This document shows positions 1,597-54,970 of a stretch of DNA of 64,000 nt, in pieces. The translations under genes were made by a program, and so were the position numbers. Within the stretch, counting starts at the first letter, position 1; every line of letters begins with the position of its first letter. The notes beneath the pieces were generated by a model. It saw nothing but the letters and a program-made list of their open reading frames with translations, was not told the DNA's origin and did no database searches. The DNA is from Rhizobium sp. L1K21 (GTDB lineage Bacteria > Pseudomonadota > Alphaproteobacteria > Rhizobiales > Rhizobiaceae), in NCBI RefSeq assembly GCF_024055895.1, contig NZ_JAMXLE010000002.1:372001-436000 (forward strand). Direction: 5' to 3'.

Positions 1597-3147
1597 ATGA
1601 TGCGTTTGCAGGCACTAACAAATAATGAGCAGGTTCAGAAAGCGGCGGCAGAGCTGGACGTGCAAAAAGGGCAGTCGGGGGAAAACGAGGACATGAATCA
1701 CAATGAGCTTTTCGAGCGCTTCAGTGCCCGCTTGAAAGCAAAGGTCGGTCAGGACGTATATGCCAGCTGGTTTGGCCGCCTGAAGCTTCATTCTGTATCA
1801 AAGAGTGTTGTGCGACTGACTGTCCCGACCACGTTTCTGAAGTCCTGGATCAACAACCGTTACCTCGACCTGATCACGTCTCTTTTTCAGGAAGAAAACA
1901 AGGAAATCTTGAAGGTGGAGATCCTTGTGCGCAGCGCAATGCGCAGTTCTTCCGTCAAACAGGACGCCCACGAAGCGAGCGATCGCAGCCCTGTTGAAGG
2001 TGCACAGCAGGCGGCTCCCAAGCGCCATCATGCACAGCCGATTTCGCAGGCCGCATTAAGTGCTGTTTCCAGCACAGGCCGCACGGCTTCGTCCGCATCG
2101 CCGCTGTTCGGTTCGCCGCTTGATGGCCGCTACACGTTTGATAGCTTCGTGGAAGGCTCATCGAACCGCGTTGCTCTGGCGGCAGCAAAAACAATCGCGG
2201 AGGCCGGTTCAGGCGCAGTGCGCTTCAACCCGCTTTTCATCCATTCCAGCGTCGGGCTTGGCAAGACGCACCTTCTGCAGGCCATTGCCTCTGCGGCCAT
2301 TCAAAGCCCGCGTAACCCACGCGTTGTTTATCTGACGGCGGAATATTTCATGTGGCGTTTTGCAACGGCAATTCGTGACAATGATGCGCTGTCGCTGAAA
2401 GAGTCGCTGCGCAATATCGACCTTCTGGTGATTGACGACATGCAGTTCCTTCAGGGTAAATCGATCCAGAACGAATTCTGCCATCTGTTGAACTCTTTGC
2501 TCGACAGCGCAAAGCAGGTGGTGGTGGCCGCTGACCGCGCGCCCTGGGAGCTGGAATCGCTCGACCCGCGCGTCCGCTCACGTTTGCAGGGCGGTGTGGC
2601 CATTGAGATGGAAGGCCCGGACCTTGAAATGCGGCTTGAGATCCTCAAGCGCCGTCTGGAAACGGCACGTCAAGAAGATCCATCCCTCGATATTGAAGAA
2701 GACGTGCTCACCCATGTGGCACGCACCGTGACCGCTAGCGGTCGTGAGCTGGAAGGCGCATTCAATCAGCTTCTCTTCCGTCGTTCGTTTGAGCCTGATC
2801 TTTCGATCGAGCGGGTGGATGAGCTTCTGGCCCATCTGGTTGGCGCTGGTGAGCCGCGCCGCGTGCGCATTGAAGATATCCAGCGCGTCGTGGCCCGTCA
2901 TTACAATGTATCGCGTCAGGAACTCGTTTCCAATCGGCGCACACGCGTGATCGTCAAGCCGCGCCAGATTGCCATGTATCTTTCGAAGACGCTGACGCCG
3001 CGTTCCTTCCCTGAAATCGGGCGTCGTTTCGGCGGTCGCGACCATACGACTGTGCTGCATGCCGTTCGCAAGATTGAGGAGCTGATCACTGCCGATCAGA
3101 AGCTCAATCACGAAATCGAACTGCTGAAGCGCCTGATCAACGAATAA
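1597..3147 (+). CDS. dnaA: Chromosomal replication initiator DnaA
   Basis: DnaA is the AAA+ ATPase that binds DnaA boxes at oriC and opens the origin. At 516 residues it has an N-terminal helicase-interaction domain (about 33-110), a variable linker (about 115-165), the AAA+ core with Walker A GLGKTHL near residue 222 and Walker [10 protein letters not shown] near 275, and the C-terminal DNA-binding domain with the DnaA signature [11 protein letters not shown]. The start at 1597 follows AAGAGG at short spacing. An internal ATG at 1693 also has a GAGG sequence and would give a 484-residue protein, so the true start is uncertain; rhizobial DnaA proteins often carry an N-terminal extension like this one. 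Confidence 0.97.
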
Positions 3148-23430: not shown

Positions 23431-24414
23431 ATGTTTTCTCGTTTTTTTGGCAGTTCGAAACGTTCCTTCACCTCCCTTTCCGAACAGGAAATCCTGGCGC
23501 TCGCCATCTCTTCGGAAGAAGATGATGCACGCATCTATCTGGCCTATGCCGATAAGCTGCGTGACCAATATCCTCAGTCTGCAAAAGTGTTTGAGGATAT
23601 GGCAGACGTGGAAAACACCCATCGCAGGATGCTGATCGACATGCATACTGCGCGTTTTGGCGACCGCATTCCACTGATCCGGCGTGAACATGTCAGTGGC
23701 TTCTATCAGCGAAAGCCGGATTGGCTGGCCAGCACGATTTCACCGGAAGATATGGCCGCCGAAGCCGAGAACATGGAGGCCGGCGCCTACCGCTTCTACA
23801 TGGAAGCCATCAAACAGGTCAGCGATGCTGACACGCGCAAGCTGCTCGGCGACCTGGCGCTCGCAGAACAAGGCCACGAAGACGTGGCGCGCATGCTGGA
23901 TGAAAAACACCGACCTGAATCGGTGAAAAGCGACGAGGCGGAAACGGCGCGGCGGCAGTTCATTCTGACCTATGTTCAGCCGGGTCTTGCTGGTCTTATG
24001 GACGGGTCCGTTTCAACGCTTGCGCCCATCTTTGCGGCCGCCTTTGCCACACAAGATACATGGCAAACCTTTCTTGTCGGCCTTTCGGCCTCCGTGGGTG
24101 CCGGCATTTCGATGGGTTTCACTGAAGCGGCTCATGATGACGGCAAGCTGTCGGGGCGCGGTTCACCCGTCAAGCGTGGACTGGCTTCAGGCATCATGAC
24201 GGCATTGGGCGGGCTCGGCCATGCCCTGCCCTACCTCATTCCACATTTCATGACAGCGACTGTCACCGCAATTGCAGTGGTCTTTTTCGAACTTTGGGCA
24301 ATCGCCTTCATTCAGAACAAGTATATGGAGACGCCATTCCTCAGAGCTGCGTTCCAGGTCGTACTTGGGGGTGGACTGGTCCTGGCTGCGGGCATACTCA
24401 TTGGAAATGCCTGA
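23431..24414 (+). CDS. mbfA: Membrane-bound ferritin-like iron exporter MbfA
   Basis: MbfA couples an N-terminal cytoplasmic ferritin-like domain to a C-terminal VIT1/CCC1 membrane domain and exports iron, protecting against iron and peroxide stress. In the 327 residues, the ferritin-like four-helix part (about 15-165) carries the metal-ligand helices SEEDDARIYLAYAD, DVENTHRRM, EAENMEAGAYRFYMEAI and LAEQGHEDV. The membrane half starts with GLAGLMDGSVSTLAPIFAAAF and has about five hydrophobic segments. An Irr-type ICE box lies just upstream, in line with iron-dependent derepression. It is separated from moeB by 50 bp. Confidence 0.93.
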   Translation: MFSRFFGSSKRSFTSLSEQEILALAISSEEDDARIYLAYADKLRDQYPQSAKVFEDMADVENTHRRMLIDMHTARFGDRIPLIRREHVSGFYQRKPDWLASTISPEDMAAEAENMEAGAYRFYMEAIKQVSDADTRKLLGDLALAEQGHEDVARMLDEKHRPESVKSDEAETARRQFILTYVQPGLAGLMDGSVSTLAPIFAAAFATQDTWQTFLVGLSASVGAGISMGFTEAAHDDGKLSGRGSPVKRGLASGIMTALGGLGHALPYLIPHFMTATVTAIAVVFFELWAIAFIQNKYMETPFLRAAFQVVLGGGLVLAAGILIGNA

Positions 24415-24428
24415 GCCAAAGGCCGGGC

Positions 24429-25040
24429 TTATTTGCGCAAAGCGCCAACCACCACGTCCTGGCCATTCTCGATCGTAACCCAACGACCGGCATTGGTCAC
24501 GGATTGGCGCTTGAGGTAGTGATAGGGCGTATCCGTCCAGATTTTCACCTGATTGTCTAGGTTGTCCAGAATATAGTCGCCGTCAGCAGTACGCACGGTC
24601 AAAACCGCATGCCCCTCGCCGTCCGGTTTGCGCACAACAGTAATCAGGAGATCGTTTTCAGGTATGCCCTTGGCGATCAGTTCGCGCCGCTTTTCGAGAA
24701 CAAAGTCTTCGCAATCGCCCGCATCCACCGGATATTCCCAAACCTCGTCGCGGCCATAAAGCTGCTGGTCGGTCATCGGCACGATCCTGCGGTTCACGGC
24801 AAGATTGACCTCGCGGATCAATTGCCAGCCGTAGGATGTCAGTCTTGGCGGAGCGGTATCCTGCGCCTTTTCGGCACAATCGGCCTTGTGTACCTGGCAA
24901 AACTCGTAATGGCCGATCGGTTGCGAGGTCGTGCTGCCCGTCTGCATGGCGAGGGGTGTCGTGGCGTTGGCCACGGCTGAAGGGGCGACACCAAGCAGAA
25001 GCGCCGAAACTGTGGCCGCTATGCGGTATCTGAACGCCAT
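24429..25040 (-). CDS. Bacterial transglutaminase-like cysteine proteinase (BTLCP) family protein, exported
   Basis: At 203 residues it has an N-terminal signal peptide (about 1-25, ending near ANATT). The papain-like BTLCP domain follows, with a Cys-His-Asp triad visible as GDCEDFVLEKR, EGHAVLTVRT and YILDNLDNQ. BTLCP proteins are widespread in alpha- and gammaproteobacteria; the LapG type cleaves periplasmic adhesins, but most rhizobial members are uncharacterised. There is no cyclic-di-GMP receptor (LapD) neighbour here. Two perfect TTAA-N7-TTAA sites and a GANTC lie in the 75 bp upstream, which suggests control by CtrA and the cell cycle. Confidence 0.9.
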   Translation of the reverse strand: MAFRYRIAATVSALLLGVAPSAVANATTPLAMQTGSTTSQPIGHYEFCQVHKADCAEKAQDTAPPRLTSYGWQLIREVNLAVNRRIVPMTDQQLYGRDEVWEYPVDAGDCEDFVLEKRRELIAKGIPENDLLITVVRKPDGEGHAVLTVRTADGDYILDNLDNQVKIWTDTPYHYLKRQSVTNAGRWVTIENGQDVVVGALRK

Positions 25041-25058
25041 GGGAACCTCGTTAAAAAC

Positions 25059-25113
25059 TTAACAAAGAGTTAAGAACCTAACGGGCTGTGAGTCAACATT
25101 AAGAACCTGTTAA
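25059..25113 (-). promoter_or_regulatory. Two CtrA-type boxes with a GANTC between, upstream of the BTLCP gene
   Basis: TTAA-N7-TTAA occurs exactly at 25059-25073 and 25099-25113, 40 bp apart, with GAGTC at 25090-25094 between them. This is the full-length consensus of the master regulator CtrA. The first box is 19 bp before the BTLCP start, so it could block or guide transcription. Function is inferred from the motifs. Confidence 0.65.
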
Positions 25114-25199
25114 ACCAAAACCGCGCGCAATCATGGTTAAGATCGGTTCAGGGCGGTGTGCCAGGGGAATGCGCAGCATTTTGCAGGTTGGGCCTCCGA

Positions 25200-25991
25200 T
25201 CACGCGGTCAGAAGGCCCTCTGCTGCGCGTTTCAACAGCGCGATATCCTGAGCCCGCGACAAGCGGTGGTCTCCGTCCCGGACCATCGTCAGCACGACAT
25301 CGTCTGCGGGGAGATGGTCCAGCAGCTTTAGAGCATGCGTATAGGGCACATCCGGATCTTGCATTCCCTGCACTATGTGGACCGCACAACCGGTATCAAT
25401 GATGCCGCTGAGCACCAGATTCTGCTTCCCGTCCTCCATCAAAAGCCGGGTGTAGATGTTGGGTTCATCCGAATATTGTGAAGGCTCCTCGAAATAGCCT
25501 CTTGCTGCCATGCTGTCGCGCTCTTTATCCGTCAATTCGGGCTCCATCAGCTCTTGGGTAAAATCAGGAGCCGGGGCGATCAGCAACATACCGACAACCT
25601 TCTGAGGGCCTCCCGCTTTAAGAAGTTCCTGAAGCGCACGAAGGGCGATCCACCCCCCCATGGAGGAGCCAACGAGAACCAATCGTTCAGCGCCAACTTG
25701 GCGGATGACCGCCAGCGCGTCCTCCAGCCAGCGCGAAATGCAGCCATCCATAAAGTCGCCGCCGCTTTCTCCATGGCCTGAATAGTCGAGCCGGAGGCAG
25801 CCTGCACCAAGTGACTTTGCGTGCGCTTCAAGTTCCACGGCCTTTGTGCCTCGCATGTCGGAGCGGTATCCGCCGAGCCAGACGAGCTGCGGCAGCTTAC
25901 TGCCCGGTGCAGGTTCTGCAATCCGGTAGGCGATTTCACGCGCGTCAGTACCGGCGCCAACTTTGATGAATTGCGGGGTTTCTACGGTCAT
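25200..25991 (-). CDS. Alpha/beta hydrolase
   Basis: From the ATG at 25991 this is a 263-residue alpha/beta hydrolase. It shows the oxyanion segment VWLGGYRSDM, the DYSGHGESGG loop, the nucleophile elbow GSSMGG near residue 108 (G-x-S-x-G with Ser), an acid in MQDPDVPYTHA, and a terminal His in VRDGDHRLSR. It is a serine esterase or peptidase-like enzyme of unknown substrate, similar to the ABHD10/palmitoyl-hydrolase group. The open frame runs 52 codons further upstream through the terminator of the next gene; the chosen ATG has GAGAGGA in front and matches the fold start. Confidence 0.9.
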   Translation of the reverse strand: MTVETPQFIKVGAGTDAREIAYRIAEPAPGSKLPQLVWLGGYRSDMRGTKAVELEAHAKSLGAGCLRLDYSGHGESGGDFMDGCISRWLEDALAVIRQVGAERLVLVGSSMGGWIALRALQELLKAGGPQKVVGMLLIAPAPDFTQELMEPELTDKERDSMAARGYFEEPSQYSDEPNIYTRLLMEDGKQNLVLSGIIDTGCAVHIVQGMQDPDVPYTHALKLLDHLPADDVVLTMVRDGDHRLSRAQDIALLKRAAEGLLTA

Positions 25992-52650: not shown

Positions 52651-53691
52651 TCAGCCTTTTGACTGTCGCGCCCGATCACTGCCAAAGTCCAGCGGTGAGG
52701 CCACGAAGCCTGAAAAATAGTCGCCGAGATCGAGCCGGCGGAAATGGGCTTCCACGTCTTCCGGTGCCATGAATTCGTCACGGAACCAGGGATATTTTTC
52801 AGGGCAAAAGCAGCTTGCCAGCCAATCAGCGAACTTTCGGTGCCTGGCAGATTTCAAGACTTCCGGGTGGCAGGCCATCCAGATGGGTGTCGAAAGCCGC
52901 AACTGCTTTATTGGCACCGGCAGGACCTGACCGCCGATCATCTTCGCGTAGCTCGGCATCATGCCGATACCAATTCCCTTGGAGATCGCCCAATAATGGG
53001 CTGAGGAAAAATTGGTCTTGATCGCGACCATCCGTTCAGCCGCGCCTGGGCCAAACAGTCCGTCAAGATCGTAATTGTTAAGCTGGTCCGTTTCCTGCTC
53101 TACCACGCGGTGGTTGGCGAGTTCCACAAAAGTGCTCGGCAGCCCGAAGCGCTCGGCATATTGCGCGCTGGCCCAGGGCACCAGATGCAGCGTGCCCAGC
53201 TTTCGCCGTATCAGATCCGGATTTTTGGGTTCCTCGAACTGAATGGAAATATCGGCTTCCAGCCGCAACACGTCGACCGATTTCAGCGCGCATTGAAGCT
53301 CGATGCGATTATTGCCCGACGTCGCCTCTATGAACTGGCTGATTTGCGGAATGAGCCAGAAGGTTCCCAATCCTTCCGTGATGGCAAGCCTGATCGGCCC
53401 CTTCATCGTATCCATGCTGGATGCGGCGATGCGCCAGAGATCGTTGACCGACTTCTGTACCTCGCGCGCGGAGGCGATGATACGTCTGCCTTCCGGTGTC
53501 AGCCGCAGACCGGTGGGCTCTCTGAAAAAGAGCGCGCAGCCGAACTGGTCCTCCAGTCGTTCAATCGTGCGCCTGATTGTGTTGATCGACATACCGATAT
53601 TTTCGGCAGCACGGGAGAAGCTGCCGCCCTCGGCGACCGCGAGGAAAACCCGAACCAGATCCCAATCTGAGTTGCTCCAAGGGTTTTCCAT
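52651..53691 (-). CDS. LysR-family transcriptional regulator
   Basis: At 346 residues it is longer than most LysR proteins (about 300). The N-terminal winged HTH (DLVRVFLAVAEGGSFSRAAENIGMSINTIRRTIERLE) is followed by a helical linker and a periplasmic-binding-like effector domain (about 100-300). The extra 40 C-terminal residues (after CPEKYPWFRDEF) are not part of the core family. The target is unknown: the divergent gene is a tandem-GNAT protein separated by 88 bp, which makes it the natural candidate. It converges on the tRNA terminator. Confidence 0.88.
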   Translation of the reverse strand: MENPWSNSDWDLVRVFLAVAEGGSFSRAAENIGMSINTIRRTIERLEDQFGCALFFREPTGLRLTPEGRRIIASAREVQKSVNDLWRIAASSMDTMKGPIRLAITEGLGTFWLIPQISQFIEATSGNNRIELQCALKSVDVLRLEADISIQFEEPKNPDLIRRKLGTLHLVPWASAQYAERFGLPSTFVELANHRVVEQETDQLNNYDLDGLFGPGAAERMVAIKTNFSSAHYWAISKGIGIGMMPSYAKMIGGQVLPVPIKQLRLSTPIWMACHPEVLKSARHRKFADWLASCFCPEKYPWFRDEFMAPEDVEAHFRRLDLGDYFSGFVASPLDFGSDRARQSKG

Positions 53692-53743: not shown

Positions 53744-53758
53744 TTAAGCTGACGTTAA
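53744..53758 (+). promoter_or_regulatory. CtrA-type box upstream of the tandem-GNAT gene
   Basis: TTAA-GCTGACG-TTAA is an exact TTAA-N7-TTAA match, 21 bp before the ATG at 53780, with TTGACAG right after it. It could also lie within the LysR target region. Confidence 0.5.
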
Positions 53759-53779: not shown

Positions 53780-54970
53780 ATGAGCAACAAAAACTTTCTT
53801 TCGAACGGTAAAGTACGCTCCGCCGAGAAAATCCGCGAAGCCATGGCGCGTGTTAAGGCGACAAATCATATCACACGCGAAAATATTGAATATCTTCTGC
53901 CAAAGGCCGTTGAGGCGATTGGCCAACTTGCCCGGCCGGAAGCTGTTCTGGCAGTGGCAAACTACAATCCCGACTCCGTCTGGCTCTTTTCGCGCGACAA
54001 CAGCGCCCAGCCGGAAGGCTTTCAAAGCTTTCTTCTGTTGAACGAACAGGGCAAGCGCAAGTTGCTGGACGGTTCTTTGAACCTCCTGAATCCACCGCTC
54101 GATTGCCTGGTTCAACAGTCTGAAACGCCGGCGCTCATCTATGTCTGGGCGTCTTATACACCGGGCATTTCGGCAGCCGGCATTCGTCTTATGCTGGATC
54201 ATTTTACCTCTCCACGCTACGCCAAATGCGACCTTGTTTCCTGGTCGGCGACGGTGCGCGGCGAACGCGCCATGCTCAGAGACGGCTTCATCAAGGGGGT
54301 TGAGCTCGATGGCTTCTCGCGTCCAGACCTTTTCATCCTCGCGCGCTCCAAGAAGGCGCTCAATGCACTACGTCCGCGCTATGACCGGTATGATCGCGAC
54401 CTTAATCCCACGGGCATAACCGTTGTCCACGACATATCCGAACTGATGAAGGTCGCCGCCATCCGCAGCGCCGTTTATATCGGCGAACAAAGCTGCCCGT
54501 ATGACGAAGAGTTCGACGGCAACGACTTTGCCGCAACACACGTTCTGGCCTATGTCGACAACGAGCCGGTCGGTTGCATGCGAATCCGCTTCTTCGGTGA
54601 TTTTGCAAAGCTGGAACGGCTTGCCGTCAGGAAAGAGTTCCGAACGTCCCGTACGGCATTTGAGCTCGTTCGCGCCTCGGTGGAATTGTGCCGGGCAAAG
54701 GGTTTCCGCCGCATTTACGGCCATGCCCGCACCGACCTGCTGGATTTTTGGAAAAGCTTCGGTTTCAACCTGAAAGAGGGGGCCGCCGAGTTCGATTTTT
54801 CCGGCTATACCTTTGTCGAGATGGCCGAAACCATATCGCCGAAAAACGATGCGGTCTCCCTGAACGACGATCCCTACCGTCTCATCAGACCGGAAGGACG
54901 TTGGCACTATCCAGGCATTCTGGAAACATCAGCACGCGAGGGGACGGCCAGAAATGCTGCCTTCGGCTGA
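53780..54970 (+). CDS. Two-domain GNAT-type acetyltransferase
   Basis: The 396-residue protein has a C-terminal GNAT domain (about 225-350) with LAYVDNEPVGCMRIRFFGDF, a core strand AKLERLAVRKEFRTSRTAFEL and YGHARTDLLDFWKSFGF. The N-terminal half looks like a second, diverged GNAT unit: ALIYVWASYTPGISAAGIRL, CDLVSWSATVRGERAMLRDGF has the closing-strand pattern, but its acetyl-CoA loop is not recognisable. A tandem GNAT with one decayed half is known in other acyltransferases. Acceptor unknown. GGAA stands 6 bp before the start. Two small ORFs follow, overlapping by 17 bp and then 4 bp at most, so it heads a small operon. Confidence 0.82.
   Translation: MSNKNFLSNGKVRSAEKIREAMARVKATNHITRENIEYLLPKAVEAIGQLARPEAVLAVANYNPDSVWLFSRDNSAQPEGFQSFLLLNEQGKRKLLDGSLNLLNPPLDCLVQQSETPALIYVWASYTPGISAAGIRLMLDHFTSPRYAKCDLVSWSATVRGERAMLRDGFIKGVELDGFSRPDLFILARSKKALNALRPRYDRYDRDLNPTGITVVHDISELMKVAAIRSAVYIGEQSCPYDEEFDGNDFAATHVLAYVDNEPVGCMRIRFFGDFAKLERLAVRKEFRTSRTAFELVRASVELCRAKGFRRIYGHARTDLLDFWKSFGFNLKEGAAEFDFSGYTFVEMAETISPKNDAVSLNDDPYRLIRPEGRWHYPGILETSAREGTARNAAFG

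Follow-up and report, generated by a model that had tools for sequence, protein, structure and literature searches.

A conserved CtrA-type promoter predicted upstream of a BTLCP gene in Rhizobium sp. L1K21 and other Rhizobiaceae

The window, a stretch of 64,000 nt from Rhizobium sp. L1K21, carries on its minus strand a gene for a 203 aa BTLCP protein (peptidase C93; 24429–25040, ATG at 25040). The protein matches PF06035 with an E-value of 5.2e-68 and 228.3 bits (curated cut-off 27), and its N-terminus looks like a signal peptide by eye. This bears out the initial annotation, which had placed an exported BTLCP-type gene downstream of the promoter elements described below, with export as a prediction. 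Residues Cys110, His144 and Asp159 are invariant in 8 aligned homologues and have the same spacing (34, 15) as C192, H226 and D241 of HvyA (HvyA numbering taken from excerpts of PMC4241560). The enzyme is likely to act on a target in the envelope. An mbfA-like gene with rubrerythrin and VIT1 domains (23431–24414, plus strand) is convergent with the BTLCP gene, and an alpha/beta hydrolase gene (25200–25991, minus strand) lies upstream on the same strand. Both were used as synteny markers. Among the named GTDB loci, which are the best 80 of 584 confirmed stretches and represent the nearest relatives rather than a random sample, mbfA is found within the 3 kb flanks of 38 and the alpha/beta hydrolase gene in the flanks of 39. 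The loci with mbfA include that of Rhizobium nepotum, which belongs to the Agrobacterium group.

A pattern scan of the window found two exact TTAA-N7-TTAA sites upstream of the BTLCP gene with a GANTC between them, just as initially annotated. All elements are read on the minus strand. The proximal box, TTAACTCTTTGTTAA, is a predicted CtrA site at 25059–25073 that overlaps the place of a −10 element, and the distal box, TTAACAGGTTCTTAA, lies at 25099–25113. Between them a TTGACT (25091–25096), a putative −35 element, starts 23 bp upstream of the start of the proximal box. It is overlapped by GACTC (25090–25094), which has the form of a CcrM-type methylation site. Further upstream lies TTAACCAT (25133–25140), a conserved half-site that the initial annotation had overlooked; the distance from the start of its TAACCAT to the proximal box is 66 bp. 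A GAGG at 25046–25049, picked out by eye in the gap of 18 nt that separates the box from the ATG, is the likely ribosome-binding site. The window holds three exact TTAA-N7-TTAA sites; in 100 dinucleotide shuffles the mean was 0.18 and no shuffle gave as many as three. The third, TTAAGCTGACGTTAA at 53744–53758, is found between an ORF that looks LysR-like by eye (52651–53691, minus strand) and a 396-aa ORF (53780–54970, plus strand). GANTC is depleted in the window (85 sites, 306 expected). Five GANTC nevertheless fall within ∼70 bp at 1019–1087, before an ORF named dnaA by eye (1597–3147), and this group possibly reflects a methylation-linked control of dnaA.

To assess the conservation of these elements we searched 61 genomes for the BTLCP protein, which was found in 59, and compared the DNA upstream of the best match in L1K21 itself and 29 relatives (30 genomes with loci). 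In all five relatives of the same genus the proximal box (TTAACTGTTTGTTAA at −34), a GANTC at −55 and TTAACCAT were present, and the exact distal box was absent from all five. The conservation of the boxes in near relatives thus holds for the proximal one and fails for the distal one, which is lineage-specific. The twin boxes are there, as the initial annotation said, but we reject them as the functional pair. Pairs of boxes are not unique in the genome; the weight of the observation rests on the conserved proximal box.

An exact box was present in 63 of the 80 named loci (best 80 of 584). When the same loci were resampled 200 times with a first-order Markov model, exact boxes were found in a mean of 0.52 of 80 and at most 3, and six control windows in the named loci contained one in only 0–3 of 78–79 cases. 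TTGAC was found 22–24 bp upstream of the box in all 63 of the best 80 loci that have an exact box, at exactly 23 bp in 58 of them; this count was made without selecting loci on the spacing. A full TTAA-N7-TTAA site is hence present in the promoter and conserved, which by its sequence would assign the gene to the CtrA regulon. Together with a CtrA encoded in the genome (see below), this upholds the proposal that the promoter of a predicted exported BTLCP contains a CtrA-type site.

The upstream element is conserved in a different manner. In 99 loci with the combination of TTGAC and box (the module) or a near variant of it, TAACCAT starts either 54–56 bp (42 loci) or 65–67 bp (47 loci) upstream of the box, i.e., at one of these two distances in 89 of 99. 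The distances from 57 to 64 bp were not seen in any of the 99, and the element is missing in 10. The two distances lie one turn of the helix apart. On the protein tree the distance has switched at least 3 times; as only 3 changes are needed and the loci are related, the independent evidence for helical phasing is modest. The GANTC behaves otherwise. TTGACTC, which creates it, was found in 51 of the 99 loci (48 at the exact offset and 3 more with TTGAC at 22 or 24 bp) and is absent from 48, and its state, scored at the exact offset, has changed at least 17 times on the tree. Because of these counts we regard it as a labile addition. It is present in the window and in the five relatives of the same genus, but the counts do not support it as a defining part of the promoter, and we reject it as an invariant one.

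The module is nearly specific to the BTLCP gene. The pattern TTGAC-N18-TTAA-N7-TTAA occurs at 26 places in the 61 genomes, 23 of them at a BTLCP gene: 22 lie directly upstream of and facing the gene, one is an inverted reading of one of these, and 3 are elsewhere. The reversed control pattern gave 5 places in the same genomes. A search of 397 genomes of the order found the module in 15 of 21 Rhizobiaceae and in 16 of 376 others, at 37 places in total. Eighteen of these places are in Rhizobiaceae, and all 15 that were tested are BTLCP promoters (3 had no locus). The remaining 19 are outside the family, and none of the 15 tested is a BTLCP promoter (4 had no locus). At one of the places outside the family (L205) a remote BTLCP was seen on the opposite strand. 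Three genomes of one Rhizobiaceae genus (G104, G171 and G344) have two module places each, of which the one that was fetched (L216, L214 and L212, respectively) precedes a BTLCP gene; a duplication of the module gene is possible.

The first sample comprised 37 Rhizobiaceae genomes, of which 22 carry the module in its exact form and 6 in a near variant (G007, G017, G018, G023, G030 and G036). Module and near variant are absent from the other 9. Three of these (G010, G026 and G027) have a box upstream of BTLCP with no TTGAC at a fitting distance (one copy of G027 excluded), and six (G006, G009, G015, G024, G031 and G011, the last of which has no BTLCP) have neither box nor module. Another 20 BTLCP stretches, most of them second copies, were compared, and 17 are without the module: three in the own genome (L139–L141) and one each in 14 relatives. 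The other three (L155–L157) are copies of the module-bearing type. In this comparison the point where the protein match begins served as the reference for the upstream DNA; L141, whose match begins at residue 78, was therefore hardly tested, and the stretch was shorter for L142, L143, L146 and L152 (matches from residues 23–32). For a protein tree 143 loci were entered and 6 dropped as duplicates beyond residue 30. On the resulting 137 rows the module requires 3 changes, compared with a mean of 33.3 when shuffled, and the starred branches force 2 of them. The tree is of a quick kind without a mixture model and carries a long-branch warning for L140 and L141; L023, L064 and L065, which have degenerate modules, were scored as being without one. 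Since the changes are few and the other copies lack it, the module singles out one group of BTLCP paralogues, or comes close to doing so; we call this paralogue, found with the promoter in Rhizobiaceae, A-type.

The genome encodes CtrA at C7:571795–572466 (NF045991, 427.7 bits with a cut-off of 350), 96% identical to the CtrA query sequence. One match to GcrA and one of MucR type were also found. The exact TTAA-N7-TTAA pattern occurs 58 times in the 4.34 Mb genome and the reversed pattern 34 times; single exact boxes are thus only mildly enriched genome-wide. Among the 50 of these 58 sites that were listed there are five clusters of two or more boxes within 100 bp. In one of these clusters, four exact boxes lie within ∼80 bp (C8:96711–96791, L198), flanked by a flagellin gene and a divergent ORF of 353 aa that has no Pfam match. 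Besides the two sites at the BTLCP gene, the surroundings of 47 of the 50 listed sites were checked, and 40 of the 47 boxes were found outside any mechanical ORF longer than 180 aa. Twenty ORFs adjoining boxes were compared with Pfam at an E-value of 1e-5, giving a family for 9 and none for 11. The families were flagellin, ClpP, DUF1465 (the RcdA family), three ParA-type ATPases, a response-regulator-type DNA-binding domain, a Usg-like protein and an outer-membrane beta-barrel. In Sinorhizobium meliloti, CtrA motifs have been reported for rcdA, clpP2 and fla, among others (excerpts of PMC3616915). As the flanking families match such genes, it is plausible that part of the exact boxes here are CtrA targets.

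CtrA/MucR control of a BTLCP has been published for HvyA of Caulobacter, which controls capsulation and is the closest studied precedent that we found (excerpts of PMC4241560). HvyA (CCNA_00166) and its Sinorhizobium counterparts SMc00998 and NGR_c12490 are likewise exported BTLCPs, with an equally spaced C-H-D triad and CtrA at the promoter. The window gene probably lies outside this group. In Agrobacterium, Atu0251 is MbfA (PMC8656257, in part) and Atu0252 is a BTLCP (PMC4241560, in part). Because the window gene adjoins mbfA, and because of this locus numbering, it is most likely of the Atu0252 type, as judged by synteny and numbering rather than by sequence. Moreover, a box locked to TTGAC is not mentioned for HvyA in the available portions of PMC4241560. 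Sinorhizobium saheli has three BTLCP copies, and the only one with an exact CtrA box is the copy that adjoins mbfA. As the S. meliloti mbfA is SMc00359 (excerpts of PMC7540006), SMc00998 is disfavoured as the orthologue and is probably another paralogue, again by numbering and synteny and not by sequence. We found no literature on SMc00358 or SMc00360, the tags neighboring mbfA in S. meliloti. A Caulobacter hvyA deletion was complemented by SMc00998 and NGR_c12490 but not by Atu0252 (excerpts of PMC4241560). No report of CtrA control of an Atu0252-type gene was found in the main-text literature searched, although such a gene may be listed in CtrA ChIP or motif tables, and neither a transglutaminase nor hvyA appears in the main text of an S. 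meliloti CtrA paper (PMC4433202).

The initial annotation also suggested a role in adhesion or cell separation. The BTLCP protein remotely matches the structures 4u65 (E = 3e-9) and 4fgo (E = 9e-5), which are LapG proteins. Unlike LapG, it scores only 34.2 bits against the equivalog NF045674 (cut-off 320). A search for LapD gave no match in the genome and likewise none in 14 control genomes, which makes it uninformative. We thus found no support for a LapG/LapD adhesin route or for the suggested role.

Since a similar promoter layout precedes the gene in many other Rhizobiaceae, expression of the BTLCP gene probably follows the cell cycle. We think it very probable that CtrA binds the proximal box. 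The overall explanation that we lean towards, with some reservation, is that the A-type BTLCP gene has a core promoter with a built-in CtrA operator. TTGAC is best read as a −35 element (consensus TTGACA), and RNA polymerase would take TTGAC(T) as such. With a spacer of 17–18 nt, the place of the −10 element would then be the left half of the proximal box, which makes a poor −10. Transcription would start inside the box and give a leader of ∼20 nt carrying the GAGG. CtrA∼P on the box, aided by a further contact with TTAACCAT, which is in helical phase, would stop transcription from starting in G1 cells and in late predivisional cells, and the block would be released once CtrA is removed at the G1-S transition. 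Looping or cooperation between the box and TTAACCAT is an inferred part of this scheme.

In 88 loci with the exact module, the two key positions of the hexamer at offset 1 of the box are A and T in 51. A rival, partly TATAAT-like stretch at offset 13, where the box has its right edge, matches in at least 4 of 6 positions in 36. A sigma-70 scan of the promoter region returned no promoter, which we attribute to the poor −10; a standard sigma-70 promoter was rejected on this result. The rival stretch and the empty scan speak against the scheme, as does the lack of module and near variant in 9 of the 37 Rhizobiaceae genomes. The box ends 18–19 nt before the start codon in the genus, and the extrapolated distance is 15–56 nt in the module loci, with two exceptions at 119–120 nt.

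Direct control by CtrA is predicted, and because the box sits where the −10 should be, we favor repression over activation. Caulobacter CtrA represses from half-sites that cover the −10 and activates from sites near the −35 (excerpts of PMC4287350), and in Agrobacterium mutation of predicted CtrA sites raised the expression of dgcB and Atu3318 (excerpts of PMC7003649). The position of the box, the lack of room for a start further downstream and the Caulobacter −10 rule make repression our first choice, although the direction is inferred and we hold it to be only somewhat likelier than not to be correct. The Caulobacter rule itself concerns half-sites, full sites mostly activating from near the −35 (same excerpts of PMC4287350).

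Activation by CtrA is possible, though we rate it as the weaker candidate. CtrA could act as at hvyA, with the box and TTAACCAT recruiting the polymerase or displacing MucR to give a peak in G1, and TTGAC would then serve another factor or a second promoter. Both hvyA and SMc00998 peak in G1, and PhvyA, a target of MucR repression, depends on CtrA for its full activity (excerpts of PMC4241560); the G1 peak and positive dependence on CtrA count against repression of the A-type gene. A MucR homologue is encoded in the genome, and TTAACCAT lies at the distance typical of class-I activators. However, a CtrA-activated promoter would have its −10 some 27–33 bp downstream of the start of the box, and no TATAAT-like signal stands out there in the 88 loci. 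With the box 18–19 nt from the ATG, transcription could also not begin at the distance typical of CtrA-activated promoters, as a start site 24 bp or more downstream would fall in the coding sequence, and the locking of TTGAC to the box speaks against activation. Timing by GcrA and CcrM, where methylation of the GANTC in the −35 gates the promoter and CtrA fine-tunes it, is improbable in our view. Its model is ctrA P1 of Caulobacter, which has a GANTC at −29 and a TTAA at −14 (excerpts of PMC4287350). The likeness lies in a GANTC near the −35 and a CtrA TTAA over a −10 where CtrA represses; the window differs in having a full TTAA-N7-TTAA, a labile GANTC inside the −35 and a phased TTAACCAT upstream. 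GACTC overlaps the putative −35 and keeps its place in all five relatives of the same genus, GcrA is encoded, GANTC is scarce in the window and TTGACTC occurs in 51 of the 99 loci, but it is missing in the other 48 and has changed at least 17 times at the exact offset. Chance, by which AT-rich intergenic DNA would yield two functionless TTAA pairs, would fit the absence of the distal box from all five same-genus relatives and the mild genome-wide enrichment of single sites (58 vs 34). Given a proximal box in 63 of the best 80 of 584 loci, against 0.52 after resampling, and the fixed spacing to TTGAC, we consider it very unlikely.

Taken together, a predicted CtrA-type promoter is strongly conserved before the BTLCP gene. 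CtrA control of a BTLCP is known from HvyA; the A-type paralogue and the layout of its promoter look like the new part. The sighting of a motif is thereby turned into a prediction of the start site, the important elements and the phase of production for a gene widely conserved in rhizobia and their relatives. The split from the paralogue that complements hvyA could be the reason that Atu0252 did not stand in for HvyA. Tentatively, we suggest a second, CtrA-repressed BTLCP in Rhizobiaceae with a timing opposite to that of HvyA, controlled by a two-point operator that is shut in G1 and open in S and consists of the box over the −10 and a TTAACCAT at a distance that varies by one turn of the helix. 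If so, two sister envelope enzymes would act in alternating phases of the cell cycle, and a promoter syntax found almost once per genome would mark a CtrA circuit dedicated to a single gene.

Among the second BTLCP copies (L139, L142–L154 and L255), many show by eye AT-rich upstream DNA that includes stretches resembling ATTTTATTCTTATT and a leader resembling GGGGAGAC, possibly a MucR-silenced promoter.
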